The notes below the pieces were generated by a model that searched no databases, was not told where the DNA came from, and saw only the letters and a list, made by a program, of their open reading frames with translations. From Sphingopyxis sp. QXT-31 (GTDB lineage: Bacteria > Pseudomonadota > Alphaproteobacteria > Sphingomonadales > Sphingomonadaceae), in assembly GCF_001984035.1 (NCBI RefSeq), contig NZ_CP019449.1, forward strand, positions 1,178,001-1,242,000: a stretch of DNA of 64,000 nt. The letters are read 5' to 3'. The position numbers and the translations under genes were made by a program. The stretch's first letter is position 1. Each line of letters begins with the position of its first letter. Shown here one piece after another: positions 7,818 to 29,086 of this stretch.

Positions 7818-8816
7818 ATGCATCGCACCGAGCGTCGATCAATCTCTGCTGCCGACTTAAACTACGCCGCCGAGTTTCGGCGGCGCGTCGACGAGCTCAA
7901 AGCCAGTGTGCTCATGTCGGGCGTCGTCGGTCGCGCGACCGCGCTCAAGCGCTCGGGCCGCGAGTATAAGGGCCTCTGCCCGTTCCACGGTGAGAACTCG
8001 CCCAGCTTCTTCGTGAACGACGCGAAGGGATTCGGGCACTGCTTCGGCTGCGGGTGGCACGGCGACCAGATCAAGTTCGTCATGGAGCGCGAAGGCTGCG
8101 GCTTTCGTGAGGCGTATCAGCGGCTCGCCAATGATGATCTGCCGACATGGTCGCCGGCCGAGCGCCAGAAAGCAGCAGCCGAAGACCGGCTCGATGACCT
8201 CGAAAAGGAGGAGTGGGCGCGCAAGTTCTTCAAGGCCTCGGCGCCGGTCGCCGAGACGCCGGGCAGGATATATCTGCGGGCGCGCGGCGTCACGATTGAG
8301 CCCCCGCCGTTCGTCCGCTTCGGCATGGTGCCGTCGTGGCGCGATAAGGAAACCGGTGAATGGGGCCGCAACCGCCCTGCCCTTGTTTGCGGGGCGCAGG
8401 ACGGCACCGGCGCCGTGGTCGGCATCCAGCGGATATTCTTCAAGAACGACGACCCTGCGCTCGGCAAGAAGGATTGCAAGCTGAGCCTCGGCTCGATCCG
8501 CGGCTCGGCTCTCCGCCTGGGCGAGGCCGAGCCCGTCATCATCATGGCCGAGGGGCCGGAAGATGGCTTGTCGATCATGCAGGAGGGGCCGGGACACCCG
8601 GTCTGGGTGCCGTTCGGCACGAGTATGATGCCCTCGGTTCAACTGCCGCCGATCGTTCGCAAGGTCATCATCGCCGAACAGAACAACACGGCCGGTCGCA
8701 TCGCCGCCGCCAAGGCGGCTATCGCGCTTTCGGATCTCGGGCTTGAGGTTGCCAGTGCTCGACCGGGCGACCAGTTCGACGACTGGAACGACCAGCTGCG
8801 CGCGGTGACGGCATGA
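7818..8816 (+). CDS. DnaG-type phage primase (CHC2 zinc finger plus Toprim)
   Basis: A 332-aa primase-like protein. The CHC2 zinc finger has Cys54, His57, Cys75 and Cys78 (CPFHGENSP through CFGCGWHGD). The Toprim domain begins at EGPEDGLS (245-252), and later acidic residues are in DQFDDWNDQ near the C-terminus. It would make RNA primers for phage DNA synthesis. It lacks a helicase domain. Its stop overlaps the next gene, which carries a DUF3987-like fold and may supply the partner. Confidence 0.93.
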   Translation: MHRTERRSISAADLNYAAEFRRRVDELKASVLMSGVVGRATALKRSGREYKGLCPFHGENSPSFFVNDAKGFGHCFGCGWHGDQIKFVMEREGCGFREAYQRLANDDLPTWSPAERQKAAAEDRLDDLEKEEWARKFFKASAPVAETPGRIYLRARGVTIEPPPFVRFGMVPSWRDKETGEWGRNRPALVCGAQDGTGAVVGIQRIFFKNDDPALGKKDCKLSLGSIRGSALRLGEAEPVIIMAEGPEDGLSIMQEGPGHPVWVPFGTSMMPSVQLPPIVRKVIIAEQNNTAGRIAAAKAAIALSDLGLEVASARPGDQFDDWNDQLRAVTA

Positions 8817-10342
8817 GCGGGCGCTTCAACGACCAGTTCGCAGATGCGGCGCCCACCGTCGTGCAACCGCTCGACATCATGGGCGACAAGGGCAACCAGG
8901 CCGAATATCCGGTTGAGGCGCTTGGGCCGGTGCTGGCGGCGGCGGTCGCCGCAGGAGTAGATGCTACATTCGTGCCGGTGTCGATCGCTGCGCAGTGCTG
9001 CCTCGCAGCGATCTCGCTCGCCGGGCAGGGTCACTTCGACGTCGAGCTGCCAACCGGACAGAGGCGGCCGACGTCGCTCAGCCTCGTTACCATCGCCGAG
9101 AGCGGCGACCGCAAATCGGCCTGCGACGACTACATGATGGCTCCGGTCTGGGCTTTTCAGGAAAAGCTCGAGGATGATTTTCAGGCCCGGAAGGCGAACA
9201 CGCTGATCGAGCAGTCGGCGTGGGACGAAGCGAAGAAACAAGCGACGCAAACTCACAAGAAGGGTGGCCAAGCCGCCCTTGCGCAGGCCTACCGCGATCT
9301 CGGCCCGCGTCCAGAGGGTCCGCCCGACCCGACTATCGTGATGCGCAGCGGAACAACGCAGGCGCTGGTCAAGCGGTATATCAGCGGTCGCCCGTCGATG
9401 GGCCTCATGTCCGACGAGGGCGGGTCGTGGCTCGGCGGCTACGGCATGACTCCCGATAATCAGCTTCTGACCATATCGCTGCTGAGCGACTTCTGGGACG
9501 GTAGGGCGGTGCAGATCAACACGGTCGGCGAGGGCTTCACAGCGCTCAAGGGGCGCCGGCTCGCCTTCCACCTCATGATTCAGCCGTTCCTCGCCGGTCG
9601 CCTCCTCGGCAACGCCGAGGCGCAGGGGCAAGGGTTCTTGAGCCGCCTCCTCGTCGCGGCTCCCGAGAGCAAAGCCGGATCGAGGTTCGTCGATCCTGAC
9701 CGTCGCCAAAGCCCGGAGCATCGCGCGGCGATCGGGACTTTCCGCGAACGGCTCAGCACGATCATTTCTGCGCCATTGCCCATGGTCGACGACACGCCGG
9801 TCTTGAAGCCCGAGCCCGTCATCTTTTCCGATCAGGCGAAAGCTATGTGGTGGGCGTTCTACAATGCGCTTGAAGCGCGCCTCGGCCCCGAGGGCGACCT
9901 CAAGGAGGTGAAAGGCTTCGTCGGCAAGCTGCCGGAGCAAGCTGCGCGGCTTGCAGTCAATCTCGCAGCCTTCGAGCAAGGCGCTCGCCTGCGCGAGCTG
10001 GACGCGCCGACGCTGGCGCGCGGTATCCAGCTCGCCGAGTTTTATCTGTCCGAAGCCGTGAGGCTATTCGGGAAGCCCAGCACCGACCCGCTCATGGCAG
10101 ACGCTCAACTCCTCTCAGACTGGCTGCGCGAAAAATGGACCGAGAACCTGATCTCCGCGAAGGCAATCGCGCAGTTCGGCCCGAGCCGACTTCGCCGCGG
10201 GGGAGACCATATCGCCGCCCTGATCGATGTCCTCGTACGTCACGAACATCTCTCGGACCAGCTGCCCGGCGGCGGCATGGTAAGCGGCGCCAAGGTCCGT
10301 AAGGCTTGGCGCCTGCAGATGCGCGAGGCCCGCAATGGCTAG
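8813..10342 (+). CDS. DUF3987-type phage replication-associated protein
   Basis: A 509-aa protein like the DUF3987 proteins found next to phage and plasmid primases. It has the typical segments LSLVTIAESGDRKSACDDYM (a P-loop-like site, GDRKS), VMRSGTTQALVKR, LMSDEGGSWLGGYGM (acidic motif) and LLSDFWDGRAVQ. The family is thought to be a divergent helicase or primase-helicase ATPase; the activity is not proven. It overlaps the primase stop in an ATGA, so the two are co-translated. Confidence 0.85.
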   Translation: MSGRFNDQFADAAPTVVQPLDIMGDKGNQAEYPVEALGPVLAAAVAAGVDATFVPVSIAAQCCLAAISLAGQGHFDVELPTGQRRPTSLSLVTIAESGDRKSACDDYMMAPVWAFQEKLEDDFQARKANTLIEQSAWDEAKKQATQTHKKGGQAALAQAYRDLGPRPEGPPDPTIVMRSGTTQALVKRYISGRPSMGLMSDEGGSWLGGYGMTPDNQLLTISLLSDFWDGRAVQINTVGEGFTALKGRRLAFHLMIQPFLAGRLLGNAEAQGQGFLSRLLVAAPESKAGSRFVDPDRRQSPEHRAAIGTFRERLSTIISAPLPMVDDTPVLKPEPVIFSDQAKAMWWAFYNALEARLGPEGDLKEVKGFVGKLPEQAARLAVNLAAFEQGARLRELDAPTLARGIQLAEFYLSEAVRLFGKPSTDPLMADAQLLSDWLREKWTENLISAKAIAQFGPSRLRRGGDHIAALIDVLVRHEHLSDQLPGGGMVSGAKVRKAWRLQMREARNG

Positions 10343-10916
10343 CGCATTCGATCCCTCGGCGTTCATCGCCGCCGAAGCGTCGCGGCCGGTAGCGATCGGT
10401 AGCGATGATTTCTCGATGTTGCGCGCAGCGTCGAAACCCGCAGAAATCCGCGCCATTCCGGCCGTCCCGTGCAAGACGGTAGCGAAAGTAGCAACTGTAG
10501 CAGGCCCCAGCGCCGAAAATGAACTTTCCGATGCTGTCGTAAAGTTGCCGTGGGATGGCTATCTTCTGCCCTGGTCGGGATCGCCCTGCCCGTCATTCAT
10601 CCGCCCAGAGATATTCGACGAGATCACGAACGAGGCCGTCGCCGTCTCGCGCCGCTGGGGCGCTCAGGCGATTGAGGCCGGCTGGTCGACGATTGATCTA
10701 TTCGGCTGCTGGCGTCATCCGCAGTACCGCCGCGTCGACTGCAACGGTCTCGTGGCGTCGATTGTCGGGCTGCTCACGCCAGTGCGGGTGACGGCGCTGT
10801 CGCCGACACGCGCCGATCTCACCGATCATCTCGGCAATGTCATGCGGTTTTATCGTCGGCCGATGCCGTTCGCTGTCCATCTCTGGGAGGCATATGCCAT
10901 GCCAGCAGGCCCGTAA
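10335..10916 (+). CDS. Hypothetical phage protein following the replication genes
   Basis: A 193-aa protein that overlaps the previous gene by 8 bases. The first 65 residues are low-complexity, encoded partly by repeated GTAGC pentamers. The rest holds the conserved-looking segment RRWGAQAIEAGWSTIDLFGCW and VRVTALSPTRADLTD. Similar C-terminal parts occur in proteins encoded beside primases in sphingomonad mobile elements, but no function is known. No membrane segment was seen. Confidence 0.78.
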   Translation: MASAFDPSAFIAAEASRPVAIGSDDFSMLRAASKPAEIRAIPAVPCKTVAKVATVAGPSAENELSDAVVKLPWDGYLLPWSGSPCPSFIRPEIFDEITNEAVAVSRRWGAQAIEAGWSTIDLFGCWRHPQYRRVDCNGLVASIVGLLTPVRVTALSPTRADLTDHLGNVMRFYRRPMPFAVHLWEAYAMPAGP

Positions 10917-11105
10917 GAGTAGCAATGAGGTTGCTACTCTTCGCTACACCGGCGCGCTTTGATGCCCTTCCATCTACTCCCGCAACTGAGGAGTGGAATG
11001 AATATCCTATTGTTTTCTCTATATTTTCAGAGGTTTTAACATGACGATGAGGGGCGATCTTCGAAGTGTAGCGCAGGGGGCCGCTACAGTTGCTACACTT
11101 GCTAC
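10389..11105. repeat. Cluster of GTAGC/GCTAC repeats
   Basis: GTAGC or its complement occurs at 10389, 10399, 10479, 10488, 10497, 10919, 10933, 10943, 11069, 11083, 11092 and 11101, often 9 bp apart. At 10915-10941 two copies form a perfect 11-bp hairpin (arms around TGAGG). At 11068-11089 two more form a 7-bp inverted repeat. The cluster flanks the gap between the replication genes and the NusG-like gene. Confidence 0.7.
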
Positions 11106-11757
11106 TCTCCCGCACTCGCGCTGGTGCATCCTCTCGACCAGCGGCGGCCGCACCCTGCCCCTCGCCCGGTCACTCGACGCCGCCGGGCTCGATGCCTGGG
11201 CGCCGGTGCGCACCCTCCGCCGTCCGATGCCGGGGCAGCGCCGCGCGCGCTACCTCGGCCTGCGGCCCCGCATGAGGGAGATCGACTATGCCATCTTGCC
11301 GGGCTTCGTCTTCGTCGGCGCCGAGCACCTCGACGACCTCGCGCGTATCGCCCTCGACGACGCGCTGCTGCATCCGCCCTTCTCGGTCTTCCAGATGGCG
11401 GGGCGGGTGCCGTTGATCGGCAGCGCAAGCCTAGACGGGCTGCGCGAGGAGGAGGCCGACGCCGCGGTCGCCATTCAAGCCCAGCGGGACGCCGAGACGC
11501 GAGCGCAGGCCCAGCGCGCGCGGGCCGAGCAGATGCGCACCGATCGGGCACGGCGCACGGCACTGCGCCGCGAGCGCCGCGACTTCGAGCAAGGTGCGAG
11601 GGTGGCGGTGCTCGACATGCCGTCGATGGCGGGGATGATCGGCAGCGTGGAGAGTTCGTCCGGCACGAAGGCGACGATCCATTTCGGCGGTTCGCTGACG
11701 ATGGAAATAGAGGCTTGGCAGGTGATTCCCGCTCCGCTATTGGACGGGCACGCCTGA
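11041..11757 (+). CDS. NusG/RfaH-like transcription elongation factor, putative late antiterminator
   Basis: A 238-aa protein with the two-domain layout of NusG paralogues. An NGN-like domain (about 27-130) starts with RWCILSTSGGRTLPLARSLD, continues with LDAWAPVR and has the hallmark AILPGFVFVGAE. A long charged helix (133-182) follows, then a KOW domain (184-230) with FEQGARVAVLDMPSMAGMIG. Chromosomal NusG is shorter and lacks this charged insert. It sits where lambda has Q, between replication and late genes. It probably binds RNA polymerase so that transcripts read through into the 25-kb late operon; this is inference from family and place. Confidence 0.82.
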   Translation: MTMRGDLRSVAQGAATVATLATLPHSRWCILSTSGGRTLPLARSLDAAGLDAWAPVRTLRRPMPGQRRARYLGLRPRMREIDYAILPGFVFVGAEHLDDLARIALDDALLHPPFSVFQMAGRVPLIGSASLDGLREEEADAAVAIQAQRDAETRAQAQRARAEQMRTDRARRTALRRERRDFEQGARVAVLDMPSMAGMIGSVESSSGTKATIHFGGSLTMEIEAWQVIPAPLLDGHA

Positions 11758-11969
11758 CGGCGTCGCTGCTCAAGCAGCAGGCGGGGATAGACGATCTTGG
11801 TCACCATGCCATTGCGCTCCCCGACCAAACGCAGGAAGCCTGTGCTTCCGGCGCTGTGCAACGCAATTCAGGAATGCGAAGACCCAGGACCAATCAGGTC
11901 ACGGCACGTCTAGCCCGGCCCGAGGGAGCCGTGAACGGAATCCCTCGCCCCTTCTCGACGGGAGCAGCC

Positions 11970-12140
11970 ATGCCCCAGCCCGACATCGTCGCCCTGCTGC
12001 AGGACATCGCGCGCGACGTTCACGACGCGGCGTTCGACTTCATGGAGCCAGCACGCGACCGGCGCGACGCCGAGGGCCGCATCGCCCGCATCGAGGATCT
12101 GGCAGCACGCCTGCGATCGACAGTGCGCGGGCATGGGTGA
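11970..12140 (+). CDS. Small hypothetical phage protein (56 aa)
   Basis: A 56-aa helical protein (MPQPDIVALLQDIARDVHDA then RIARIEDLAARLR), preceded by GGGAG. It overlaps the start of the HNH gene by 8 bases. The open frame extends far upstream, but that part lies opposite the NusG-like coding sequence and is a shadow. The 212-bp stretch before it has no gene and holds a GGAAGC/GCTTCC hairpin at 11834-11849. Function unknown. Confidence 0.6.
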   Translation: MPQPDIVALLQDIARDVHDAAFDFMEPARDRRDAEGRIARIEDLAARLRSTVRGHG

Positions 12141-12438
12141 ACGCCTCCGAGGTCGGGCCGGGCAGAAGGCTCGAGCCCGCCGCCTCGCCCGCACCGATGG
12201 CTTATGCGAACGCTGCCTCGACCGCGGCATCGTGCGCCTGGCTGACGAGGTCAACCACAAGGTGCCGCTCGATCATGGCGGCGAGGACGTCGACGAGAAC
12301 ACCGAGAACCTGTGCAAGCCGTGTCACCTTGGGGTCACCGCAGAGCAGTTCGGACATGCCGCCCCGATCAAGGGGCGAGGCATAGGACGCGACGGCCGGC
12401 CGACCAGCCCCGACCATCCTTGGAACAGGAGCGGATGA
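12133..12438 (+). CDS. HNH endonuclease
   Basis: A 101-aa HNH nuclease. The motif is complete: CERC pair, VNHKVPLDHGG with the paired His residues, NTENLCKPCH with Asn and the second CxxC. HNH proteins directly before P27-type small terminases are characteristic of cos-packaging HK97-like phages, where they help the terminase cut the genome ends. It overlaps both neighbours (8 and 4 bases). Confidence 0.92.
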   Translation: MGERLRGRAGQKARARRLARTDGLCERCLDRGIVRLADEVNHKVPLDHGGEDVDENTENLCKPCHLGVTAEQFGHAAPIKGRGIGRDGRPTSPDHPWNRSG

Positions 12439-13050: not shown

Positions 13051-13497
13051 ATGAGCCTCACCGCGATCGAGGGAACTGGCGCAATCGTGCCGGAACCCGA
13101 CTGGACCCTGCTACTAACTGACGATCTGGAGCGCGCCGCCGCTTCCGAGCATTGGCGGCGCATCACGACCGAGCTTAAGGACCGCGAGTTGCTCGCCCCG
13201 GCGAACGCTCACGCCATCCAGCGCCTCGTCATCGCCTATCTCGTCTTCGATCGCGCCGCGCGCGAGGTCGCCGAGAACGGCGCGGTCATGAAGCCGAAGC
13301 GCGGCAACCCGAAAGCCATCGCCCGCCTGTCCCCGTACTTCACCGCCATGCGCGAGGCCGGGTCTGACGCTGATCGGCAAGAGCAGGAGCTTGGCATTGC
13401 TCCGCGTCGTCGCTCTGGCGCGGGCAAGGTCGCGAAGCGGACTGTCCGCCGCACCGGTGCCGACGCCTATCTGAAGAACCGCGGCGGCGGTGCCTAA
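13051..13497 (+). CDS. terS: Terminase small subunit, P27 family
   Basis: A 148-aa DNA-packaging recognition protein. It shows the P27-type layout: helical core (AASEHWRRITTELKDRELL, NAHAIQRLVIAYLVFDRAAR), a central NPKAIARLSPYFTAMREAG segment and a basic C-terminal tail. It would bind the cos region and load the large subunit. It lies between HNH and TerL, the standard order, and overlaps the terL start by 8 bases. Confidence 0.88.
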   Translation: MSLTAIEGTGAIVPEPDWTLLLTDDLERAAASEHWRRITTELKDRELLAPANAHAIQRLVIAYLVFDRAAREVAENGAVMKPKRGNPKAIARLSPYFTAMREAGSDADRQEQELGIAPRRRSGAGKVAKRTVRRTGADAYLKNRGGGA

Positions 13498-15301
13498 CCG
13501 CTTCCTCGCCGATCCCGACCCGACGACCGCCTGGGCGAAAGCTGCCGTCGACGGGAAGCTGTTCGTTGTCGGCGATCTGGTTCGGTACGCTGCCGAGCGT
13601 CATCTGCGCGACATCCGCGACGGCGAGGCTCGCGGCATCTATTGGCGGCCGGAGGAAGCCGCCCACTTTCTGAACTTCCTCCCCTCGGTGTTTCAGGTCA
13701 CCGACGGCCCCGCGGCCGGAGAACCGTTCCACCCGTTGGAGTGGCATACATTCGCCGGCGGTAGCCTGTTCGGCTGGCGCACCGCGACCAATCGCTGGCG
13801 ATTTCGCACCGGCTGGCTCGAAACCGGCAAGGGACAGGCAAAATCGCCGTTCATGGGCGCGATCGGCGTCTACATCATGGGCTGGTGCGACATCGCCCGC
13901 GCGCAGTGCTACGCCATCGGCGAGGACAAGGCGACCGCGAACGTCCTCTTTCGCGACGCGGTCGCAATGTGCCGGGCGGACATCCCCGGCGGTGACGAGG
14001 GGGAAAGCCTCGAAGGTCTCGGCGAGGTCGTCATCCGCGGCGAGCTGGAGAACGCGTGGAAGATCGAGCACCCGGATAGCGGGTCATTCTTCCAGCCTAT
14101 CGCCAGCGGCGAATCTCAGTCGGGGCCTCGCCCCTCCTATGTTGCCGGCGACGAGATCCACGAGCTTAAATCGGAATCGGCTCTGCTGACGTGGAAAGCG
14201 GCGATCGACAAGGTGGCGGGCAATGCACTGATGCTGCTCGGGACCAACACGCCCGGCACGACGCAGCACGTCGGCACCAGCTACTCGAATATGTACCAGT
14301 CGATCGTGAAGGGCGAGGCGCGCGATGATACGGCGTTCGCGTTCATCGCTCGCATCGACAAGGCCGACCGCGAGACCGTCTTCGAGAATGAAAAGTGCTG
14401 GCCGAAGTCGCTTCCGGCGCTCGGCGAGACCTTTCCGATCGAGAACATCCGCGAGACCGTCAATTCAGCGCGGTTGCGCCCGTCGACGAAGTCGAGCGTC
14501 AAGCGCCTGTATTTCGGCATCGACACCGCCGCGGCGGACTTCTGGATAAGCGAGGAAAAATGGTCTGCGGTGCAGGGCGCGGTCGACAGCCGCGCGATGA
14601 TCGGCCGCAAATGCTGGCTGTCCCTCGACCTCGCGCAGAAGAACGATCTTACCGCCCTCTCGGCAGCGTGGGAGTTGCCCGAGTTGCTCGCGGTCAAGAC
14701 GTGGTACTGGACCGCGAAAGAGGGGCTTGAGGAGCGCGCCGACGCCGACAAGGCGCCGTACCTTGACTGGGTCGAAGACAAATATCTCACCGCGACGCCC
14801 GGCGCGACGATCGATTACACCTTCGTCGCGCAGCAGGTCGCCGAGATGGACGCCGAGCACGATATTCAGGCGCTTTTCGTCGACTCCGCGTTTCTGTCGG
14901 CCTTCACCGACGCCTGCGACGAAGTTGGGCTCGAGTACTGGATTTACGAGGGGCCGGGCAAGCCTGAGGGGCGCGGCCTCAAGATCATCCGCCACGCGCA
15001 GGGCCAGAAGATCAATTTCGAGGAGCGGCAAATCTGTATGCCGCACTCGATCACCCGCACCGAGGACCGCATTCTAGAGGGTCGCGTGCTGATTGACGCC
15101 TCGCCGGTCACCTACAGTTGCGCGGCGAACGCGGTTGTCGAGGCCGACGGCCTCGGAAACCGCATGTTCAACAAGAAGCGCTCCCGCGGCCGGATCGACG
15201 GCATGGTGACGGTCGCGATGGTCATTGGCGGCGCGACCGCCAACGAGAAGCCGAAGAAGAAGTCGGTCTACGCCACCCGCGGCGTCATCCGCATCAAGTG
15301 A
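13490..15301 (+). CDS. terL: Terminase large subunit
   Basis: A 603-aa packaging motor with ATPase and nuclease domains. A Walker A-type loop ETGKGQAKS is at 111-119, Walker B with catalytic Glu is VAGDEIHE (218-225), and a coupling motif LLGTNTPG follows near 250. The nuclease half begins at LSLDLAQKNDLTAL (about 378-390) and has a second acidic site in ALFVDSAF and a third near RGRIDGMV at the C-terminus. Start is GTG, overlapping terS. It cuts the concatemer and drives DNA into the prohead. Confidence 0.95.
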   Translation: MPNRFLADPDPTTAWAKAAVDGKLFVVGDLVRYAAERHLRDIRDGEARGIYWRPEEAAHFLNFLPSVFQVTDGPAAGEPFHPLEWHTFAGGSLFGWRTATNRWRFRTGWLETGKGQAKSPFMGAIGVYIMGWCDIARAQCYAIGEDKATANVLFRDAVAMCRADIPGGDEGESLEGLGEVVIRGELENAWKIEHPDSGSFFQPIASGESQSGPRPSYVAGDEIHELKSESALLTWKAAIDKVAGNALMLLGTNTPGTTQHVGTSYSNMYQSIVKGEARDDTAFAFIARIDKADRETVFENEKCWPKSLPALGETFPIENIRETVNSARLRPSTKSSVKRLYFGIDTAAADFWISEEKWSAVQGAVDSRAMIGRKCWLSLDLAQKNDLTALSAAWELPELLAVKTWYWTAKEGLEERADADKAPYLDWVEDKYLTATPGATIDYTFVAQQVAEMDAEHDIQALFVDSAFLSAFTDACDEVGLEYWIYEGPGKPEGRGLKIIRHAQGQKINFEERQICMPHSITRTEDRILEGRVLIDASPVTYSCAANAVVEADGLGNRMFNKKRSRGRIDGMVTVAMVIGGATANEKPKKKSVYATRGVIRIK

Positions 15302-15313
15302 CGAGGAGGCGGA

Positions 15314-16603
15314 ATGGGCATTTTCACACGCTTCCTCGACTCAGTCGGCATCATGTCGGGCGAGCCCGCCGCTGCTGCCGTTCGCCAGCCCCCGGTGTCA
15401 GGCCCGATCTTGGCCTATGAAACCTACGATCTGAACGACCCCAGGCTGCTCGAACTGATGCGCGAGGGCCGTACCGGCGTGTCCGGCATCGCCGTCAACG
15501 ACCGAAAGGCCCTGCGCAACAGCACCTTCTTCCGCGCCGTCTGGCTCCAGTCGGCCTCAATGGGAATGTTGCCGGTCCACCTGCGCCGCCGCACCGGTGA
15601 CAAGGTCGAAAAAGCGACCGATCACCCGCTTTTCAACGTCCTGCACAAGAAGCCGAACGACTTTCAGACGGCCAGCCGCTTCAAGGCCTATATGCAGATG
15701 TGCGCCCTGCTCGACGGCGGCGCCTATGCCCTGAAAATCCGCTCGCGCGGCCATGTACGCCAGCTGATCCCGCTTGAACGCGGGTCGTGTAAGCCACGCC
15801 TAACCGATACGTGGGGTCTCGTTTTCGACTATCAGCCGAAAAAGGGCGGGTCGCGCGTCCTCATGGCCGATGACGTGTTTCATTTCGGCTCCCCGCTCAC
15901 GCTCGACGGCCTGAACGGCCTCGGCCTTCTCGACGTTGCTGCCGACACCCTCGGCCTCGCCATTCGGGCGCAGCAGGCGGCGTCGCGGCTGCTCGTCAAC
16001 GGCACGATCGCGCGCGGCGCGCTCGAAACCGATGAGACGCTCGGCGCCGAGGCAATCGAGAACCTGAAAGCGAGCCTCCGCGAGGATTATGCCGGCGTCG
16101 GCGCGACCGACGACTGGCTCATTCTTGAGGAGGGGCTGAAAGCGAAGCTGTTCGCAGGATCTGCGCGCGATTCCCAGCTCGTCGAACTGATGAAGCGCGA
16201 GGCCGAGGAAGTCGCCCGGTTTACCGGCGTGCCCCGCCCCCTGCTGATGTTCGACGAGACCAGCTGGGGCAGCGGCATCGAGCAGCTCGGCCTATTCTTC
16301 GTGACCTACTGCCTGATGCCGTGGTTCGTCATCTGGGAAGAGGCAATCTGGACGTGGCTCCTGACGCCGCAAGAGCAGCTGACGATGTACGCCAAATACA
16401 ACGAGGGCGCGCTGCTTCGCGGCTCGCTGAAAGACCAGGCGGAGTTTCTGAAAGCCGCGCTCGGGCCGAACGTCGGTTATCTCACCCAGAATGAGGCCCG
16501 CGACATGCAGGACCGCAACCCGATCGACGGCGGCGACGAACTGCCGCGCCCCGGCACGACCGCACACAGCATCATGCAAGAGGAACAGGCCGATGCAGCA
16601 TAA
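15314..16603 (+). CDS. Portal protein, HK97 family
   Basis: A 429-aa portal (head-tail connector ring). Typical segments are the N-terminal NSTFFRAVWLQSASMGMLPV, DHPLFNVLHKKPNDFQTASR, the wing and stem region with ADDVFHFGSP, and VARFTGVPRPLLMFD. Length is usual for the family. GAGGAGG precedes the ATG. The 3' end overlaps the protease gene by 11 bases. Confidence 0.95.
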   Translation: MGIFTRFLDSVGIMSGEPAAAAVRQPPVSGPILAYETYDLNDPRLLELMREGRTGVSGIAVNDRKALRNSTFFRAVWLQSASMGMLPVHLRRRTGDKVEKATDHPLFNVLHKKPNDFQTASRFKAYMQMCALLDGGAYALKIRSRGHVRQLIPLERGSCKPRLTDTWGLVFDYQPKKGGSRVLMADDVFHFGSPLTLDGLNGLGLLDVAADTLGLAIRAQQAASRLLVNGTIARGALETDETLGAEAIENLKASLREDYAGVGATDDWLILEEGLKAKLFAGSARDSQLVELMKREAEEVARFTGVPRPLLMFDETSWGSGIEQLGLFFVTYCLMPWFVIWEEAIWTWLLTPQEQLTMYAKYNEGALLRGSLKDQAEFLKAALGPNVGYLTQNEARDMQDRNPIDGGDELPRPGTTAHSIMQEEQADAA

Positions 16604-17474
16604 TGGCTTGCTCGCGGTGCGCGCTACGGCGCGCCCGCCCGAGATCAAGGGCGTCGGCGACGGCGCCGGCTGGAAGTTCGAGACGACCGCACTGGCGGAC
16701 GACTTCAAGCATTTTGAGGTCCGCGCCGAGGCATCCGATCATCCGACCATCTCGATCTTCGACTATATCGGCGACGACGGCGAAGGCGGCGGCGTGACCG
16801 CCAAGCGGATTGCCGCAGCCCTCCGCGCCTGCGCTGGCAAGCCGATCACCGTCGAGATCAATTCGCCGGGCGGCAACTATTTCGAGGGCGTTGCCATCTA
16901 CAATCTGTTGCGCCGCCACGACGCGGCGGTCGACGTCGAAATTCTCGGAATTGCCGCCTCGGCGGCGTCGGTCATCGCCATGGCCGGCGACACGATCGCG
17001 GTCGCGCACAATTCCGAGATCATGATTCACGAGGCCCGCGGCCTGTTCTTCGGCACGAAGTCCGAGATGGCCGATGCAATGGAGACGCTCGGCCATATCG
17101 ACCGATCGATGGTGGAGACCTATGCCCACCGATCGGGCCGCCCCGTCGACGACTTCGAGACGATGATCGCGGGTAAGGACGTCTATTTTCGCGGGCAGGA
17201 GGCCATCGACGCTGGTCTGGCCGACTTGCTCATGGACCGCGAGGCCGAAATGCCCGTCTATGTCGTGGCAGAGACCAATCTGCCCACCGACAAGGCCTCG
17301 CTCGACCGCTTTCTCGCGAAGCACGACATGCCGCGCTCGGCGCGCCGTGAACTGTTCCGCGCGATTGGCACGCACAACGCTGCCGACCCTGCCACGCCGC
17401 GCGCTGGCGAAGCCGAGCCCGCTTTCGAGGTCACCGACGACCACGAACGCCGGCTCCAAGCCCTGTTGTCCTAA
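16593..17474 (+). CDS. Prohead protease, ClpP/S14 type
   Basis: A 293-aa head maturation protease. The ClpP-like site is seen as GIAASAAS with catalytic Ser123 and IMIHEARG with His146; the INSPGGNYFEG loop (90-99) is the oxyanion region. It would cleave the capsid scaffold domain during maturation. An upstream in-frame start at 16491 lies inside the portal gene, while the ATG at 16593 has an AGGAA ribosome site and is preferred. The last 60 residues form a variable tail. Confidence 0.92.
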   Translation: MQHNGLLAVRATARPPEIKGVGDGAGWKFETTALADDFKHFEVRAEASDHPTISIFDYIGDDGEGGGVTAKRIAAALRACAGKPITVEINSPGGNYFEGVAIYNLLRRHDAAVDVEILGIAASAASVIAMAGDTIAVAHNSEIMIHEARGLFFGTKSEMADAMETLGHIDRSMVETYAHRSGRPVDDFETMIAGKDVYFRGQEAIDAGLADLLMDREAEMPVYVVAETNLPTDKASLDRFLAKHDMPRSARRELFRAIGTHNAADPATPRAGEAEPAFEVTDDHERRLQALLS

Positions 17475-17488
17475 AAGGAACATCCATC

Positions 17489-18760
17489 ATGAACGCTATG
17501 ACCACCCTGCGCGGCACCGCCGCGACGGGCCGGGGCCTCCTCGCCGTGCGCGCCGAAGCCCAGCCCAAAAAGCCCGCCACCCTCGATGACGTGCTCGTCA
17601 CCTTCGAGGCCTTCAAGAAGCAGAACGACGCCGCGATCGACGAGATCAAGGCCGGCAAGACCGACGTCCTGACGACCGAGGCCCTCGACAAGATCAACGC
17701 TGCGATCGACGAGGTCACCGCGGCGGTCGACGAGCAGGCGAAGATCATCGCCGCGGCCAAACTCGGCAACGGCGCTGTCATCGGCGACATCGAGGCGGAC
17801 GCCGAATATACCGCCGGCTTCAAGGCCTTCATGCGCCGCGGCGAGAAGGGCATTGCCGACTTCGAGGCGGCAATGTCGAAGGGCACCGACGCCGACGGCG
17901 GTCTGCTCGCGCCGATCGAGTGGGACCGCACCATTGGCGACAAGCTCAAGAAGATCAGTCCGATGCGCCGCGAAAGCCGCGTCATCACGATCTCGGTCGC
18001 GGGCTTCAAGAAGCTGTTCAACGACCGCGCTGTCGGTTCGGGCTGGGTCGGTGAAACCGCCTCGCGCCCGGCGACCAGCACGCCGCAGATCGGCTCCGTC
18101 GATTTTACCCCCGGCGAGCTCTATGCCAACCCTGCGATCTCGCAGGGTCTGCTCGACGATGCCGCGGTCGATCTCGAACAGTGGCTCGGCGGCGAGGTCG
18201 ACACCGAGTTTGCGCGTCAGGAGGGCATCGCTTTCCTGTCGGGTGACGGGACGAACAAGCCGCATGGCATCCTCACCTATGTGACCGGCGCGGCGAACGC
18301 GGCGCGTCACCCGTGGGGCGCCATCCCGGTCGTCAATAGCGGGCACGCTACGACCATCCCGAGCGGCGACGCGCTGATCGACTTCATGATGGACCTGCCG
18401 TCCGAGTTTGAAGCGAATGCGAAGCTGTTCCTCAAGCGGGACTCGCTTCGTGCGCTTCGCAAGCTCAAGGACGGCCAGGGCAACTATCTGTGGCAGCCGT
18501 CGTATGTCGCCGGCACGCCGTCGACGCTCAACGCCGCGCCCGTCGTCGAAATGCCCGATATGCCGAGCATCGCCGCGGGTAACATCGCTGCGCTCTATGG
18601 CGACATGGAGGCGACCTATCTGGTCGTCGATCGCGTCGGCATCCGCGTCCTGCGCGACCCGTTCACCAACAAGCCCTTCGTGCATTTCTACACGACCAAG
18701 CGCGTTGGCGGCGGCGTCCACAACCCCGAACCGATGCGCGCGCTCAAGATCAGCGCGTAA
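17489..18760 (+). CDS. Major capsid protein, HK97 fold
   Basis: A 423-aa capsid protein. The N-terminal 120 residues form a charged, coiled delta/scaffold region (TLDDVLVTFEAFKKQNDAAI) that the upstream protease should remove. The mature part begins near GTDADGGLLAPIEWDR and carries the HK97 pattern: PMRRESRVITIS, WVGETASRPATSTPQ, GELYANPAISQGLLDD and SGDGTNKPHGIL. Strong ribosome site (AAGGAAC). Confidence 0.95.
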   Translation: MNAMTTLRGTAATGRGLLAVRAEAQPKKPATLDDVLVTFEAFKKQNDAAIDEIKAGKTDVLTTEALDKINAAIDEVTAAVDEQAKIIAAAKLGNGAVIGDIEADAEYTAGFKAFMRRGEKGIADFEAAMSKGTDADGGLLAPIEWDRTIGDKLKKISPMRRESRVITISVAGFKKLFNDRAVGSGWVGETASRPATSTPQIGSVDFTPGELYANPAISQGLLDDAAVDLEQWLGGEVDTEFARQEGIAFLSGDGTNKPHGILTYVTGAANAARHPWGAIPVVNSGHATTIPSGDALIDFMMDLPSEFEANAKLFLKRDSLRALRKLKDGQGNYLWQPSYVAGTPSTLNAAPVVEMPDMPSIAAGNIAALYGDMEATYLVVDRVGIRVLRDPFTNKPFVHFYTTKRVGGGVHNPEPMRALKISA

Positions 18761-22950: not shown

Positions 22951-23583
22951 ATGCGCGCACTCGCTCTCGCTCTGGCTCTCGTTTCAACGCCCGCGCTGGC
23001 GGATGAGCGCCGGGTCGTCCCGATTGGCGACGTCCTCGATTCGCTCTCTCTTGACCAGCGCGACAACGTCCGGCTCGCAAAGCTATCTGCGCCGATCAAT
23101 CGCAAGATTTATTTGGTCGAGCGCCTGAGCCTGCCCTCTGGCACCGAATTGGAATGGCAAAGTTCCCGAGGGGCATTTTGCTCCGAAAGCCGAGGGCACT
23201 TCGACAGCGACGGCATAGAATCGGGCCTCTGCCTCGCCGATCGCGACGGCGACGGCCGGATGGAAACAGCCTCGGGCTATGGAATTGTTCGCCCAGTCCA
23301 GCTGAAAGAGCCCGCGCCTTTTACCACGCGCGTCGGCACGGTTTTTTCGCCGAGCGACGTCATCAAGCGCATCGTGTATCTGGGCGGGACATCAACCGAG
23401 GCCCGGTTTAGTTACCGCGAGTTCACCCGAGAGGGGCTTGCAAGGCCGGCGTTCACCGAAGACCTCACGGTGCCGCTGCAGAGCTTCCCGGTGCAGATGA
23501 CCCTTAAGGGGGTTGCCTTCACAATCCACGGGCAGAGCAGCGCCGGGCTCGACGTCACCGTGCCGGATCGACTGCCGAGCTAG
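22951..23583 (+). CDS. Exported protein of unknown function, likely cargo (moron)
   Basis: A 210-aa protein with a clear signal peptide (MRALALALALVSTPALA, cleavage before DE). The mature part has two Cys (about 74 and 90) that could pair, and an Asp-rich ADRDGDGRME loop of the calcium-binding type. It interrupts the usual direct order of tail chaperone then tape measure, has AGGGG before its ATG, and is followed by its own intrinsic terminator. This points to a lysogen-expressed cargo gene acting in the periplasm or at the surface. No promoter was clear in the 48 bases upstream. Confidence 0.78.
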   Translation: MRALALALALVSTPALADERRVVPIGDVLDSLSLDQRDNVRLAKLSAPINRKIYLVERLSLPSGTELEWQSSRGAFCSESRGHFDSDGIESGLCLADRDGDGRMETASGYGIVRPVQLKEPAPFTTRVGTVFSPSDVIKRIVYLGGTSTEARFSYREFTREGLARPAFTEDLTVPLQSFPVQMTLKGVAFTIHGQSSAGLDVTVPDRLPS

Positions 23584-23628: not shown

Positions 23629-23650
23629 GCCCCGCTTCTGCGGGGCTTTT
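23629..23650 (+). terminator. Intrinsic terminator after the exported cargo gene
   Basis: GCCCCGC and GCGGGGC form a perfect 7-bp stem with loop TTCT, followed by TTTT. It lies 46 bases past the stop and 18 before the tape measure start, so late transcription must read through it, as an antiterminator would allow. Confidence 0.85.
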
Positions 23651-23668: not shown

Positions 23669-26600
23669 ATGGACGACGGCACGCCTTCTCTTGAGGTCGG
23701 CTTCGAGATCGACACCAGCAACTCCTATCAGGCGCTTCTGGAGTTGCAGCGCGTTATGGATTCGACCGAGGTTAAGGTCGTCAACGACGCGGCCTCGATC
23801 GAGCGCGCAACCCGCGGCATGATCGACCTCACCGGCGCGACCGCCTCGATCACCAGTTTCGGCAACGCCGCGACCAAGGAACTGCAAGCTATCCGCCGAG
23901 AGCGTGACGCTGCCGAGCGCGGCGGTGAGGGTGTGTCTCGCCAGCTTGAGAAAGACATCGCCAATTTCGGCAAGACCCGAGCGGAGATCCGTGCGACCAA
24001 GATCGAAACGGCCGCGCTGCGCGCCGAGCAGGCCGGGCTCACAGAGCTTGCGGGGCGTCTGCGTGCGCAGCAGGAAGCGCTCGCTGCCGCCCATGCCGGC
24101 GCAGCGGCAATGGCCGCCAGCGAGGCGCAGGCGCTCCGCGATGCCGCTTTTGCTCATCAGATGTTCGAGGCGCGAGCCCGCGAGGGCGCCGCGGCTCTCC
24201 GCGAGATGGAGGCGGCCGCCGAGGCCGAGCGCCGCGCCCTCGACGCGACTGCAATCCGCGAGGCGGCTTGGGCGCACCAGATGTTTGAAGCCCATGCCCG
24301 CGCGGGCGCGCAAGCCATGCGCGAAGCTGAAGCCGCGGCGATGGCACAGCAACGCGCGCTCGTGGAAGCCAATCGCGAGACTGAACAGTCCGCCCGACGG
24401 GCCGCCGCTGCCGAGGCAGCACAGGCCGCTTCGGTCAATTCGCTTCGCGCTGCGGTCGATCCTCTTGCCGGTGCCCAGCAGCGGCTCAGCCGTGAACTGG
24501 AAAACGCTGTTCGCCTCTACCGTGCCGGTGCGATCGGGATGGATGAGTACGAGGCGAGCACGCAGACCCTCGGCGCTCGAATCGAAATGGTGCGGCAGGC
24601 GCAGGCCCGCCAAGCGGCGGGTATGGACGACGCCACCGACGGCGCGCGGCTGCGAGCGAACGACCTCACGAACATCATGTTCCAGCTGCAAGACATCTTC
24701 GTCAGTCTCGCATCGGGGCAGAACCCCTTCGTTGTACTCATTCAGCAGGGCGCACAGCTTGGCGGCATCATGGCGCAGACGGGGATGTCGGCGGCCGCAA
24801 TGGCGCAGGCCATTTTCGGCCTGTTCGTAGTCACGACACCGACCGCTGCCGCCGTTGCGGCGCTGGCCGCCGCCGACGCGCAGCTTGCCGCCGCGCAGGC
24901 CGCGGCGACCGCGAGTGGAACGACCGCGGCGATCAGCGCCGCCGAGCTTGCCGTCGCCACTGAGGTTGCTGCGGCCGCCGCCACCGCCGACGCAAATGCG
25001 CAGCGCGCGCTCGCCGTCGCGCAAGCCGCCGTGGCCGGGTCCGCCGCTGCCGACGCGGCTGCAATTGCCGCACTCGCCGCTGCGCAGGCGGCCGCAACTA
25101 TCACTGCCGCCGAGATGACCGCGGCCGAGGCCGCAGTCGCGACCGCGACGACTGCCGCCGCTGGCGCGTCCGAACTGGCGACCGCCGCCGCCTCCCAGCT
25201 CGCCGCGGCGCAGGCCGCTGCTGCCGCCGCTGGCAACGCCGCGGCAGCTTCGGCGACACGCGCCCTTGCCCCCTGGCTCCGCGTCCTCGGCCCCTTCGCT
25301 CTCGCTCTCGGCGCCGCCGCCGCAGCGATCAAAGTGCTCCAGAGCAATGCGAACGAAGGCCGCGACATGGAGGCCTACGCCAAGTCCCTCGGCCTCACCG
25401 CGAAAGAGGTCCGCAACCTCGATGACGTGACGATCACCTTCGGAGATACTGCGAAGGCTGTTTTTCAGGTCGCCGGTCGCGCGATCTGGGACAACATCGG
25501 CCCAGCTGTCACCCGCGTCTGGACCGTCATGAAAGAATGGACCGCGTGGATTTTCAGCGGCGTCAAAGCGGCCGTGAACTTCATGATCGGCGGGTTCGTC
25601 GGCGCCTACACCATCATCACCGAGAACTGGAGCAAGTTCCCCGCGGTCATCGGCGACGTCTTCTACAGCGCCGTGAATAATGCGATCGGCGCGATCAATG
25701 CGCTGATTGAAAAGGCGGTCTCGGGGGTCAACGGCTCCATCGACACAGCCAACGGCATCCTTGCCAAGGCTGGGCTCGAGTTGCCCCAGCTCACCGCGCC
25801 CCAGATCGAGGAACTGAACAACCAATATAAGGGCGCCGCCGAGAAGTTCGGCAAGACCGTCACCGACACCATGGGCAAGGCTATGGGGGTCGACTACATC
25901 GGCAACGCTGGCGCCGCGGTCTTCGGCCAGGCAGAAAAGAATGCGCGCAGCCGGCTCTACGAGCAGGCGCTGGAAGCTGGCTATCTCGATCCCGAGGCGG
26001 GGAACAAGGGCCGCACGCCTTCAGACCGTCTCGCCCGCGAGGCCGAGGCCACCGAGGCGCAGATCCGCAATCTCTATGCACTGGCGGCCGCCTATCGGGT
26101 CTCCGGCGCCGAGGCCCTGATCGCCGAGGCCCGTGTCAAAGCCGAGAGCGAAGCGATCAAGAAGCGCGGCGACGTCGAGGCCATGGTCAACCGGCAGATT
26201 CGGCTCGCCATCGCGCAACGCATCAAAGACGCCGCCGAGAGCACCGCCGCCATGCGCGAGCAGGCCACCATCCAGTCGGAGGTGAACGCTCGGGTTGCTG
26301 CCGGCAACCTCACCTCCGAGCGCGCCGCGGAGATCGTCAGGGAGCGGATTGCTGATCTTCCCTTGCTTGCCGCTGCGCAGGCCGCGCAGCAGCGCGGCCT
26401 CGCCGCCGAGGCGTCCGCTGCGATGAAAGCCCTCGCCGACCAGCAGGCCATTCGCGAGGACATGCGCAAGGCCGAAGAAGAAGCTCGGTTCAATGCGTCC
26501 ATTGCGGACGGTGCCGATCGCCTTGCGATGCTCCGCGAGGAGTTGCGGCTCGTCGGCGCGACGAACGAGGAGCGGGTCCGCGCGTTGGCGCTGCTCAAAG

Positions 26601-29086
26601 CGACGCAGGAAGCCGAGACCTATGCCGATCCGGTGAAGCGCGAGGCCTATATCGCACAGCAGATGGCGATTGCTGAGGCCTCGCTCGCAGTCGAGCGCGA
26701 GGCTGACGCGCTTCGTCGCCTGCGTGAGGAGTTTGATTATCTGACAGACGCTGCCCGTGAGGCCGGCGACTCCATTGCAAGGGCCTTCGGCGGTGTGGGC
26801 GATTCGATCGCCGACGTGATTGACGTCCTCACCGAATATCAGCGTCGCCAGAACGAAATCGATGAGGCGCGCAAAGCGGCGGGGAACAACCAAGCCCGGC
26901 AGCGCCTGCTCGACAAGCAGACCCGCGCCGTTGAGCTCCAGTCCTACACCGCACTCGCAGGCGCGGCGAAGACGTTTTTCAAGCAGGGCAGCGACGGTTA
27001 CAAGGCGATGGCGGCGGCTGAAAAGGCCTTCGCCCTCGTCCAGCTCGCAAACACTGCGGTCAACGTGGCGGCCGGCGCCGCAAAGATTTTCGCCAGCCTC
27101 GGTCCCTTCGCCTTCCCCGTCGTAGCGGCGATGCTCGGCGTGATGGCGGCGCTCGGTTTCTCGAAGGGTGGCGGCGCCGGATCGCAGCCGCAGACCAACG
27201 AGGGCACCGGCACGGTGCTCGGTGACAGCGAGGCCAAGAGCGAGAGCATCAAGCGCTCGATCGACGCGCTCCGCGAGATCGACACGCTCATGCTCAACTA
27301 TTCGCGTCAGATGGCCGGGTCGCTCCGCACGATCGAGGACAACATTCAGGGCTTCGCCAGCCTGCTTGTCCGCAATGCCGACGGCATCAATGCGAACATG
27401 GGCGTCAAGGAAGGGTTCAAGAGCAACGCCGGCACTACGCTCGCCGGAATCGGCTTCCTGCTGGGCGGCGCGCTCGGCGCGGGCATCGGCGCGCTGCTGA
27501 CCAAAATCCCGATCGTCGGCAGCATCCTCAAGGGCCTGTTCGGCACGAAAACGACCGTCGTCGGCAGCGGTCTGTTCGGTGGGTCGCAGTCGCTGGAGGA
27601 CATCCTCGCGGGCGGCTTCGACGCTCAATATTACAGCGACATCAAGAAGAAGAAGAAGTTCTTCGGCATCTCGGCGGGCACGTCCTATTCGACGCAATAC
27701 AGCTCGGCCGACCCGCTGCTCGAAAATCAGTTCACGCTCATTCTGCGGGAGTTCAACAACGCCATTCTCGCGGCCGCCGGCCCCCTCGGGGCGGCGACCG
27801 CCGAGATACAGCAGCGCCTCAACGGCTTCGTGCTCAACATCGGCAAGATCGACCTAAAGGGCCTCACCGGCGAGCAGATCGATGAGAAGCTGAACGCTGT
27901 CTTCGGCGCCGCCGCCGACGACATGGCGCGCGCAGCCTTCCCCTTTATCGATCAGTTCCAGAAGGCGGGCGAAGGCGCGTTCGAGACGCTGGTGCGGGTC
28001 GCCTCGACGATCGAGGCAGTCACCGCCTCGCTCGACATGCTCGGCCAGGGCGCCACCGACTTGAGCATCGCGGTAAAGCTGGGGCTCGCCGACCAGTTTG
28101 ACAGCGTTTCGGACTTCACCAACGCGATCGACGCTTACTTCGGCGCCTTCTACACGAAGGAGGAACAGGCCGCCGCGCGCATGGCGCAGATGACGCAGGT
28201 TTTCGAGAGCCTCGGCCTCACCCTGCCCACCTCGCTCGCTGCATTCCGCCAGCTCGTCGAGGCGCAAGACCTCAACACCGAGGCGGGTCGCGCTGCCTAT
28301 GCCACCTTGCTCAAGCTCGCCCCGGCCTTCGCCGATCTGCAAGCCGCTATGGAGGGCGCCAAGTCGGCGGCGGACATCGCGAGCGAGCGTCAGGATCTGC
28401 AACGCCAGCTTCTCGAACTGCGCGGCGACACCGCGGCGCTCCGCGCGCTGCAACTCGCGAAGCTCGATCCGAGCAACCGCGCGCTGCAAGAGCAAATCTG
28501 GGCCGTTCAGGATGCCCAGGCGGCCGCCAAGGCCGCCGATGAACTGCGCAAGGCGTGGCAGTCGGTCGGCGACAGCATCATGGACGAGGTGCGCCGCATT
28601 CGGGGCCTCACCGACGCCAACGGCGGGGGTGGCTTCGCTTCGTTGCTCGCGCAGTTCAACGCCGCCAACGCGGCCGCACGCGGCGGCGATATGGACGCGG
28701 CCAAAAGCCTGCCCCAGCTTTCGCAGGCCCTTCTCGCCGCGGCGGCCGACGCTGCAACGAGCCGTCAGGAACTGGACCGCGTGCGCGCGCAGACCGCTGC
28801 GGCCCTTGAGGCGACGTTCGGGCTGGTCAATGGCCTTGCCGGCAATCCGACATCGAACGCGGCGCTGCTCAACGCGGGCGCTGCGTCGCAGGCGCCCGGT
28901 GCCGCCAATGACAACGCGGCTGCAGACAGCGTCGACGAACTGCGTGCTGAGACCGTTCAGCTTCGCGCCGACCTCACAGCGGCGCTCGCGACGATCGCCG
29001 CCAACACCGGCGCGATCAAGCGCAAGCTCGACGACGTTACAGCTCAAAGCGGAGGCGACGCGGTCTCGACGGTGGCGGCTGCGTGA
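23669..29086 (+). CDS. Tail length tape measure protein
   Basis: A 1805-aa, Ala-rich protein that sets tail length and may aid DNA entry. It has long coiled segments (about 60-270 and 780-1100) and the well-kept motif DLTNIMFQLQDIFVSLASGQ with NPFVVLIQQGAQ, usual in tape measures. An extreme Ala/Thr-rich block spans about 390-540. Hydrophobic parts near 545-570 and 1140-1170 may insert in the membrane. The ATG at 23669 follows GAGGAGG, so the longer frame from 23513 is rejected. By the lambda rule of about 0.15 nm per residue the tail would be roughly 270 nm. Confidence 0.93.
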   Translation: MDDGTPSLEVGFEIDTSNSYQALLELQRVMDSTEVKVVNDAASIERATRGMIDLTGATASITSFGNAATKELQAIRRERDAAERGGEGVSRQLEKDIANFGKTRAEIRATKIETAALRAEQAGLTELAGRLRAQQEALAAAHAGAAAMAASEAQALRDAAFAHQMFEARAREGAAALREMEAAAEAERRALDATAIREAAWAHQMFEAHARAGAQAMREAEAAAMAQQRALVEANRETEQSARRAAAAEAAQAASVNSLRAAVDPLAGAQQRLSRELENAVRLYRAGAIGMDEYEASTQTLGARIEMVRQAQARQAAGMDDATDGARLRANDLTNIMFQLQDIFVSLASGQNPFVVLIQQGAQLGGIMAQTGMSAAAMAQAIFGLFVVTTPTAAAVAALAAADAQLAAAQAAATASGTTAAISAAELAVATEVAAAAATADANAQRALAVAQAAVAGSAAADAAAIAALAAAQAAATITAAEMTAAEAAVATATTAAAGASELATAAASQLAAAQAAAAAAGNAAAASATRALAPWLRVLGPFALALGAAAAAIKVLQSNANEGRDMEAYAKSLGLTAKEVRNLDDVTITFGDTAKAVFQVAGRAIWDNIGPAVTRVWTVMKEWTAWIFSGVKAAVNFMIGGFVGAYTIITENWSKFPAVIGDVFYSAVNNAIGAINALIEKAVSGVNGSIDTANGILAKAGLELPQLTAPQIEELNNQYKGAAEKFGKTVTDTMGKAMGVDYIGNAGAAVFGQAEKNARSRLYEQALEAGYLDPEAGNKGRTPSDRLAREAEATEAQIRNLYALAAAYRVSGAEALIAEARVKAESEAIKKRGDVEAMVNRQIRLAIAQRIKDAAESTAAMREQATIQSEVNARVAAGNLTSERAAEIVRERIADLPLLAAAQAAQQRGLAAEASAAMKALADQQAIREDMRKAEEEARFNASIADGADRLAMLREELRLVGATNEERVRALALLKATQEAETYADPVKREAYIAQQMAIAEASLAVEREADALRRLREEFDYLTDAAREAGDSIARAFGGVGDSIADVIDVLTEYQRRQNEIDEARKAAGNNQARQRLLDKQTRAVELQSYTALAGAAKTFFKQGSDGYKAMAAAEKAFALVQLANTAVNVAAGAAKIFASLGPFAFPVVAAMLGVMAALGFSKGGGAGSQPQTNEGTGTVLGDSEAKSESIKRSIDALREIDTLMLNYSRQMAGSLRTIEDNIQGFASLLVRNADGINANMGVKEGFKSNAGTTLAGIGFLLGGALGAGIGALLTKIPIVGSILKGLFGTKTTVVGSGLFGGSQSLEDILAGGFDAQYYSDIKKKKKFFGISAGTSYSTQYSSADPLLENQFTLILREFNNAILAAAGPLGAATAEIQQRLNGFVLNIGKIDLKGLTGEQIDEKLNAVFGAAADDMARAAFPFIDQFQKAGEGAFETLVRVASTIEAVTASLDMLGQGATDLSIAVKLGLADQFDSVSDFTNAIDAYFGAFYTKEEQAAARMAQMTQVFESLGLTLPTSLAAFRQLVEAQDLNTEAGRAAYATLLKLAPAFADLQAAMEGAKSAADIASERQDLQRQLLELRGDTAALRALQLAKLDPSNRALQEQIWAVQDAQAAAKAADELRKAWQSVGDSIMDEVRRIRGLTDANGGGGFASLLAQFNAANAAARGGDMDAAKSLPQLSQALLAAAADAATSRQELDRVRAQTAAALEATFGLVNGLAGNPTSNAALLNAGAASQAPGAANDNAAADSVDELRAETVQLRADLTAALATIAANTGAIKRKLDDVTAQSGGDAVSTVAAA

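Follow-up and report, generated by a model that had tools for sequence, protein, structure and literature searches.

What does a NusG-like gene do between the replication genes and the packaging genes of a phage, and what part is played by the gene-free DNA that follows it? We considered this question for a window of 64,000 nt from Sphingopyxis sp. QXT-31 (contig NZ_CP019449.1, positions 1,178,001 to 1,242,000); "the window" denotes this whole stretch, coordinates refer to it, and all the genes, RNA elements and terminators located below lie on its + strand. We consider it likely that the gene encodes a phage-specific NusG paralog which is recruited by a cis-acting RNA and serves as an elongation or antitermination factor for the late genes. 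Operons for capsules, toxins, antibiotics and lipopolysaccharide are known to have specialised NusG paralogs (PMC6391919), and rfaH-like genes occur on plasmids and prophages (PMC7593976); here and below, papers are cited for those parts of their text that were available. In the open-licence PMC literature we found no phage late-gene system built on a NusG paralog.

The gene (11041-11757) encodes a protein of 238 aa, which the initial annotation had called a NusG/RfaH-like factor with NGN and KOW domains joined by a long charged helix, and both points are borne out. Precisely, the protein matched PHROG_6386, "transcription antiterminator" (E 5.8e-11), and the best PDB neighbours of its AlphaFold2 model (mean pLDDT 89.8, pTM 0.69), obtained by Foldseek/VIA, were NusG and RfaH. 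In this model both domains expected of the NusG/Spt5 family, an NGN domain and a C-terminal KOW domain, are present: the first superposes on the NGN domain of RfaH (2.6 Å over 99 residues), the second (residues 182-232), modelled as a beta-barrel and in this state only, fits a KOW domain of Spt5 (1.2 Å over 50 residues), and a 50-residue helix (residues 128-177) joins them. By sequence, the window protein itself matched no Pfam family and no PDB chain, nor any NCBIfam family up to E 10; among the curated NCBIfam models left unmatched are those for RfaH and LoaP. Among 42 aligned family members, Pfam NusG (PF02357) was matched by 10 at E up to 1 (best 6e-4) and the KOW family PF23290 by 3 (best E 2.4e-7).

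The true start of the gene, or the role of its first part (11041-11115), is unsure, because the encoded N-terminal extension, ATVATLATLP, lies over a GCTAC repeat and is absent from most of the relatives shown. One database copy of the same protein (P0002) starts only at residue 78. Directly upstream of the gene there is an inverted repeat, AGAGTAGCAA..TTGCTACTCT, at 10916-10940, a possible operator or bidirectional hairpin. Further copies of GTTGCTAC are present within the gene at 11089 and, in inverted orientation, at 10488.

A probable position for late regulators, and the terminators beyond it

The NusG-like gene sits between a replication module and a packaging module. Upstream are a DNA primase-like gene (7818-8816; PHROG_510, E 8e-51) and a DNA helicase-like gene (8813-10342; PHROG_2373, E 6e-56). 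Downstream, the first short ORF after the RNA lies at 11970-12140, and a similar ORF was read by eye in several relatives. It is followed by an HNH endonuclease gene at the start of the packaging module (12133-12438; PHROG_144), by the genes for the small and large terminase subunits (13051-15301; PHROG_83 and PHROG_9) and by those for the portal, the head maturation protease and the major head protein (15314-18760).

The gene had been placed in the position of lambda Q, and gene replacement in related phages bears this out. Searching with the large terminase, we obtained 51 phage loci, of which we used the 38 with at least 3 kb of upstream sequence (the window phage included; the loci were not dereplicated, and two of them, L177 and L198, are nearly alike). 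In 18 of the 38, among them the window phage, there was a NusG-like gene and in none of these 18 any of five alternative families, vs an alternative family in each of the 20 loci without a NusG-like gene. The NusG-like gene ends 1.1-3.0 kb before the terminase and the alternative families lie 1.3-3.5 kb before it. To select the alternative families we had used 15 of the 20 NusG-negative loci; the five unused ones (L177, L186, L187, L194 and L198) also carried one, and the 18 NusG-positive loci are an independent test of the exclusion. We termed the families A, B, C1, C2 and D, the last three being the result of splitting a family C that was found to be a mixture.

We consider this place a slot for late regulators because the NusG-like gene and unrelated families replace each other there. 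Such replacement is what would be expected of interchangeable late regulators, and the position before the packaging genes, together with replacement by other genes in relatives, is likewise what marks a Q-like gene. As for the replacing families (L152-L198, 1.3-3.5 kb before the terminase), they are candidate late regulators of their own. None of the eight alternative proteins tried is named in PHROGs, where two weak matches pointed to a family without known function; in Pfam these proteins gave one sub-threshold match, to sigma-70 region 4 (E 0.011). The predicted structure of a family A protein (pLDDT 59.7) was too poor to search with.

An intrinsic terminator with a U-run inside the late operon had been put forward as the obstacle that this factor must overcome. 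The terminator itself stands: at 23629-23650 a 7-bp stem without mismatches leads into UUUU (-16.8 kcal/mol, z -3.9), which makes a sound intrinsic terminator candidate. It was omitted by a scan that asked for 5 T in 8 and was listed by a second scan. On one side it is flanked by an ORF of unknown function and on the other, after about 20 nt, by the tape-measure gene (23669-29086; PHROG_7740, E 6e-60), with which the late operon continues. The strongest terminator-like hairpin of the + strand (40030-40066; 13-bp stem, T6) lies beyond the late genes.

The terminator does not, however, single out the NusG-like factor. In 5 of 9 tape-measure loci, our own included, a scored terminator lay within 50 nt before the tape-measure start, and a terminator-like hairpin precedes the tape measure in the window and in L199, L201, L203, L205, L206 (by eye) and L207; the position is conserved and the stem sequences differ, except that those of L201 and L207 are the same. 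Among five records searched for the regulators, a NusG-like gene was present in that of the window phage (G408) and in G410 (L203) and absent from G409, G411 and G412; G411 (L205) carries alternative family A, and family B was in none of the five. We therefore rejected this terminator as specific to the NusG system, since it is conserved in phages with and without the gene. In fact, as it occurs together with NusG in L203 and with family A in L205, it must be passed at least partly, whichever the regulator. The ORF next to it (22951-23583) gave no match in the 11 records in which it was searched.

We also considered terminator density as a signature of antitermination, at 83 loci of the family left from 114 after dereplication, and rejected it. 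Downstream of the gene there were 23 sense vs 30 antisense terminators in 722 kb, and upstream 9 on the sense vs 17 on the antisense strand in 695 kb; the sense strand was thus not enriched for terminators over the 10 kb that follow the gene. This lack of excess fits a late regulator that would block Rho or couple ribosomes to transcription, as RfaH does, instead of passing intrinsic terminators. RfaH is among the closest folds, it is described as rather inefficient on intrinsic terminators (PMC7819879) and it works against Rho (PMC5449661). Nevertheless, strong sense-strand hairpin-T sequences are present within 10 kb downstream in some phages, as well as before the tape-measure gene, and we judge this alternative unlikely.

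The structured RNA downstream of the gene

The 212-bp leader after the gene (11758-11969) had been described as gene-free, with a GGAAGC hairpin, and as a possible loading site. We found no assignable gene in it, the next short ORF starting at 11970, and the GGAAGC hairpin (11834-11849) is real and forms part of a larger conserved element. The pattern was first noticed by reading side by side the sequence downstream of the gene at the 114 loci. In the window, the element (11764-11868), recognised by a covariance-model match, by its fold and by covariation, consists of four hairpins: P1 (11765-11778; 5 bp), P2 (11780-11826; conserved internal loop GACGATCT / TTGCGC), P3 (11830-11853; GGAAGC/GCTTCC) and the mini-hairpin P4 (11855-11865; GTGC AAC GCAA), with the loops UCAA, CACCAU, CUGU and AAC, respectively. 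The window copy folds as P1-P4 (z -1.8; 7 of 200 shuffles as good).

Across loci, P1 follows the pattern GCYGC..GCRGC, and the internal loop of P2, in members with a long interdomain linker, has GAYGATCTKGG on one side and TTGCGC on the other. P4 is a hairpin with a three-nucleotide loop (GTCC-GAA-GGC, GTCC-TAC-GGC, GTCG-TAA-GC or GTGC-AAC-GCA), found elsewhere as GTCCGAAGGC, GTCCTACGGC and GTCGTAAGC. The 3' strand of P2 reads CGCTCTTGC in long-linker relatives such as L056 and L063 and GCCATTGCGC in the window; the former appears close to the boxA sequence of lambda, from which the window copy departs. In Rfam 15, we found no match at the gathering score for the window or for six further loci, and none up to E 1 for 11700-11970; the element would be a new RNA family, without an Rfam entry. 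In three phages ARAGORN called a tRNA or tRNA-like gene shortly after the element: L037 (10771-10844, odd anticodon), L072 (10749-10825, Met) and L111 (10632-10706, Thr).

The structure P1-P4 is supported by covariation. In A2, a set of 28 loci of the long-linker class hand-picked from the 83, P1 and P2 were paired in 92.3% of cells vs 43-57% when the partner was slid by 1-3 columns, and P3 and P4, in 37 chosen sequences, in 80.5% vs 34-43%; the comparison with these slid controls favours the structures, which were derived from the very sequences counted. The 37 were obtained from the 83 loci by taking the 70 with the P4 motif, setting aside 9 doubtful ones and aligning, of the 61 left, those with a like P3 layout. 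The weak part of P3 and P4 is the outer P3 stem (62% paired). Two-sided changes were found in 11 of 13 pairs of P1 and P2, a value reached by 0 of 500 shuffles, in an R1-guided alignment (48 distinct rows) that leans to the structure and includes weak matches, and in 8 of 11 pairs of P3 and P4, a value reached by 5 of 500 shuffles. As the rows were hand-picked or filtered beforehand, all of these counts apply to selected sets. A measure of further pair types on A2 was reached by 39 of 500 shuffles. RNAalifold alone recovered only P1 on the alignment A3 and nothing on A4, hence not P2-P4, and we used the counts for the named structure for this reason.

Folding energy was modestly below that of shuffles (mean z -1.1 for 67 elements vs -0.14 for 139 controls). 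A strict three-hairpin descriptor was present at 35 of 82 loci, vs 24 of 820 shuffles, 41 of 761 other regions and 18 of 82 opposite strands. A free P2 descriptor for the short-linker members (34 of 42 vs 240 of 420 mononucleotide shuffles) was rejected as too weak, and the P2 stems of these members are descriptive only, because the patterns were written after looking.

To examine the linkage of RNA and gene we used R1, a covariance model that covers only the long-linker class of the RNA. In the 4.3-Mb genome that contains the window, R1 found 11764-11823 with 64.7 bits, the next best match having 25 bits. At E up to 0.001 it gave 3 matches in 397 genomes of the same family (our own included), each at most 20 nt from a match to the family protein. 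The protein profile matched 13 of the 397 genomes and R1 only 3 because R1 covers only the long-linker class. For 14 further protein matches (the 13 from the 397 genomes and one from a virus record), we saw the element by eye just downstream in 12; we saw none in L145, and L135 was unclear. At R1 scores of at least 25 bits, the terminase loci gave 3 of 18 with and 0 of 20 without the NusG-like gene. Most of the other NusG-positive loci have an element of another P2 class, seen by eye only; no element was seen by eye at L165 and L170, that is at at least 2 of 20 loci.

We also ran two pattern scans for the P2 loop only, read off loci that had been found by the gene, on 2.9 million viral contigs, which gave 22 matches (16 and 6). 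Twenty of these were at the end of an ORF of the NusG-like family: in 19 the motif lay 17-62 nt after the ORF, and in L215 it fell within the final 80 nt of the open frame. P1 was present at all the gene-linked matches except L227. The two remaining matches, L214 and L224, had neither P1 nor the gene and look like chance. As regards the 20 gene-linked matches, 14 lay in contigs that the protein or terminase searches had already brought up, and the other 6, also with the gene, in new ones. The conserved RNA is thus found directly downstream of the NusG-like gene in very different prophages, and the proposal of a loading site is supported to the extent that a covarying RNA linked to the gene is a candidate for it.

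This linkage weighs against an RNA that acts alone on RNA polymerase, in the manner of HK022 put, with the NusG-like protein as a separate elongation factor. Such an RNA would suit an element of about 100 nt with several hairpins and conserved unpaired bases ahead of a long operon, and put RNAs, of about 70 nt and two stem-loops, need no dedicated protein (PMC9378689). However, in the NusG-negative phages with the same terminase, R1 (limited to the long-linker class) and the P4 motif find no element except partial ones in L177 and L198, and we hold this alternative to be rather improbable. As for partial copies, the 3' part of the RNA (3' strand of P2, P3 and P4) occurs as an extra copy in L060, L177 and L198; in the last two, which have no NusG gene, it lies about 2.2 and 1.5 kb before the terminase, respectively. 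All three are probably leftovers of recombination.

In many relatives the loop of P1 holds the stop codon of the NusG gene: a stop codon in the loop of a 5-bp hairpin was present at 36 of 82 loci vs 2.9% of shuffles. This overlap of P1 with the end of the gene would be expected if the RNA were a feedback element acting on termination, decay or translation of the mRNA of the gene itself, not on the late genes. On the other hand, about 0.9 kb separates the gene from the RNA downstream of it in L041 and about 70 nt in L151, and control of the late genes is what both the position of the gene and the other families found in its place suggest, which leaves feedback, to our judgement, very improbable. 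A domesticated or degenerate NusG copy without a late-gene role, for which one could cite that two family members tried against 50,697 deposited phage records gave no match, is hardly credible given residues conserved across dozens of prophages, a constant location and a covarying RNA.

Interdomain linkers and the class of the RNA

We measured the linker between two fixed residues in non-redundant members of the family. It had 18-34 residues in 42 members (21 residues in 27, 32 in 5) and 50-72 in 40 (50 residues in 22, 61 in 15, and 72, 51 and 54 in one each). Hence 38 of the 40 long linkers had 50, 61 or 72 residues, lengths spaced by three helical turns. On a tree of the NGN and KOW domains the long linker arose once. 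Exactly 11 residues were gained or lost in 6 of 17 changes inferred on a tree of which 35 of 79 inner branches are open, a pattern noticed after the fact. The helical phase was kept within 20 degrees in 7 of 11 changes of at least 5 residues, vs 16% expected (binomial P 5e-4 against lengths 5-35 taken evenly). As linker lengths step by 11 residues and the helical phase is kept, the data suggest that the long helix is a rigid, straight spacer whose angle matters.

The long helix marks only about half of the family, the other half having a linker of 18-34 residues and a related RNA. R1 scored at least 25 bits in 35 of 40 long-linker members (one of the five misses, L094, lay outside the R1 search) and in 0 of 43 short-linker members (one of which, L034, is a broken ORF). 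The match of helix length to RNA class rests on one evolutionary change and is, for this reason, no independent test.

Proposed mechanism and comparison with known systems

Taken as a whole, the initial interpretation is partly supported: it is borne out as regards the protein family, the Q position and the leader RNA as a candidate loading site, and read-through of 23629-23650 by the factor is a proposal. In the mechanism that we favour, the phage NusG paralog recruited by its cis RNA, RNA polymerase would read out of the nusG-like gene and make the P1-P4 RNA, to which the NusG-like protein may bind as it emerges. The NGN domain would then dock on the clamp helices of the polymerase, as its predicted fold suggests by analogy with NusG and RfaH, and the modified polymerase would read the late genes, which take up about 27 kb of one strand, past pauses and terminators such as 23629-23650. 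The charged helix, judging from the model and from the length pattern, may set the distance and angle of the KOW domain from the NGN domain, possibly along the RNA exit side.

A fuller version is held only tentatively, at somewhat less than an even chance. According to it, the late-gene switch would consist of the phage's own NusG paralog and of a three-hairpin-plus-tail RNA receptor at the stop codon of its gene, the two coming in at least two paired classes (a long helix with the GAYGATCTKGG/TTGCGC loop, and a short linker with a P2 of GAG/CTC type), with the helix as a ruler that changes in 11-residue, three-turn steps and lets the KOW domain keep its angular setting on the elongation complex.

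If the proposal is true, phages have a further way to switch on late genes, and dozens of protein-RNA pairs become available for studying how RNA guides a NusG paralog to its target, what role a rigid interdomain helix has on the elongation complex and why one locus can exchange unrelated genes.

Several known systems share parts of this arrangement. Lambda N with its nut site also combines an RNA site with a phage protein. Lambda N, a small peptide without ordered structure, works by recruiting Nus factors of the host, whereas here the phage would bring its own NusG-like protein. With lambda Q and Q21 the gene shares the place between replication and packaging genes and the service of one late operon, but the window protein has no sequence or fold match to lambda Q, and the site at which Q loads is a DNA element of the late promoter (PMC11150451), whereas the site proposed here is an RNA downstream of the gene. 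GafZ, an antiterminator of the Caulobacter gene transfer agent, likewise serves an alphaproteobacterial phage-like late operon; its promoter contains a putative DNA element, and the factor, whose sequence and predicted structure are described as resembling neither Q nor AlpA, likely works together with host NusA, NusG and NusE (PMC11150451). HK022 put is, as here, a structured multi-hairpin cis RNA ahead of phage operons, but it is described as needing no dedicated protein (PMC9378689), whereas here RNA and protein gene are linked.

RfaH has the same NGN and KOW architecture and serves few operons. Unlike the present system, with its structured RNA, RfaH reads the ops DNA element, and its C-terminal domain switches fold (PMC7819879), whereas the KOW domain here is modelled as a beta-barrel with a long helix.

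The closest precedent for RNA-hairpin-dependent antitermination by a NusG paralog is LoaP, for which an RNA hairpin is required and which passes an intrinsic terminator (PMC12691694). As in the difficidin operon of Bacillus velezensis, on which LoaP acts, we have here a specialised NusG paralog, hairpins in a leader RNA and a long operon, and the covarying RNA, which immediately follows the gene and precedes the late genes, would correspond to the cis RNA hairpin of LoaP. That hairpin is of the UNCG type; some relatives here have UUCG or UCCG in the P2 loop, while the P2 loop of the window, CACCAU, is not of this type. The system proposed here differs from LoaP in that the gene is a phage gene, the RNA has four hairpins and not one small one, and a 50-residue helix stands between the two domains of the protein.
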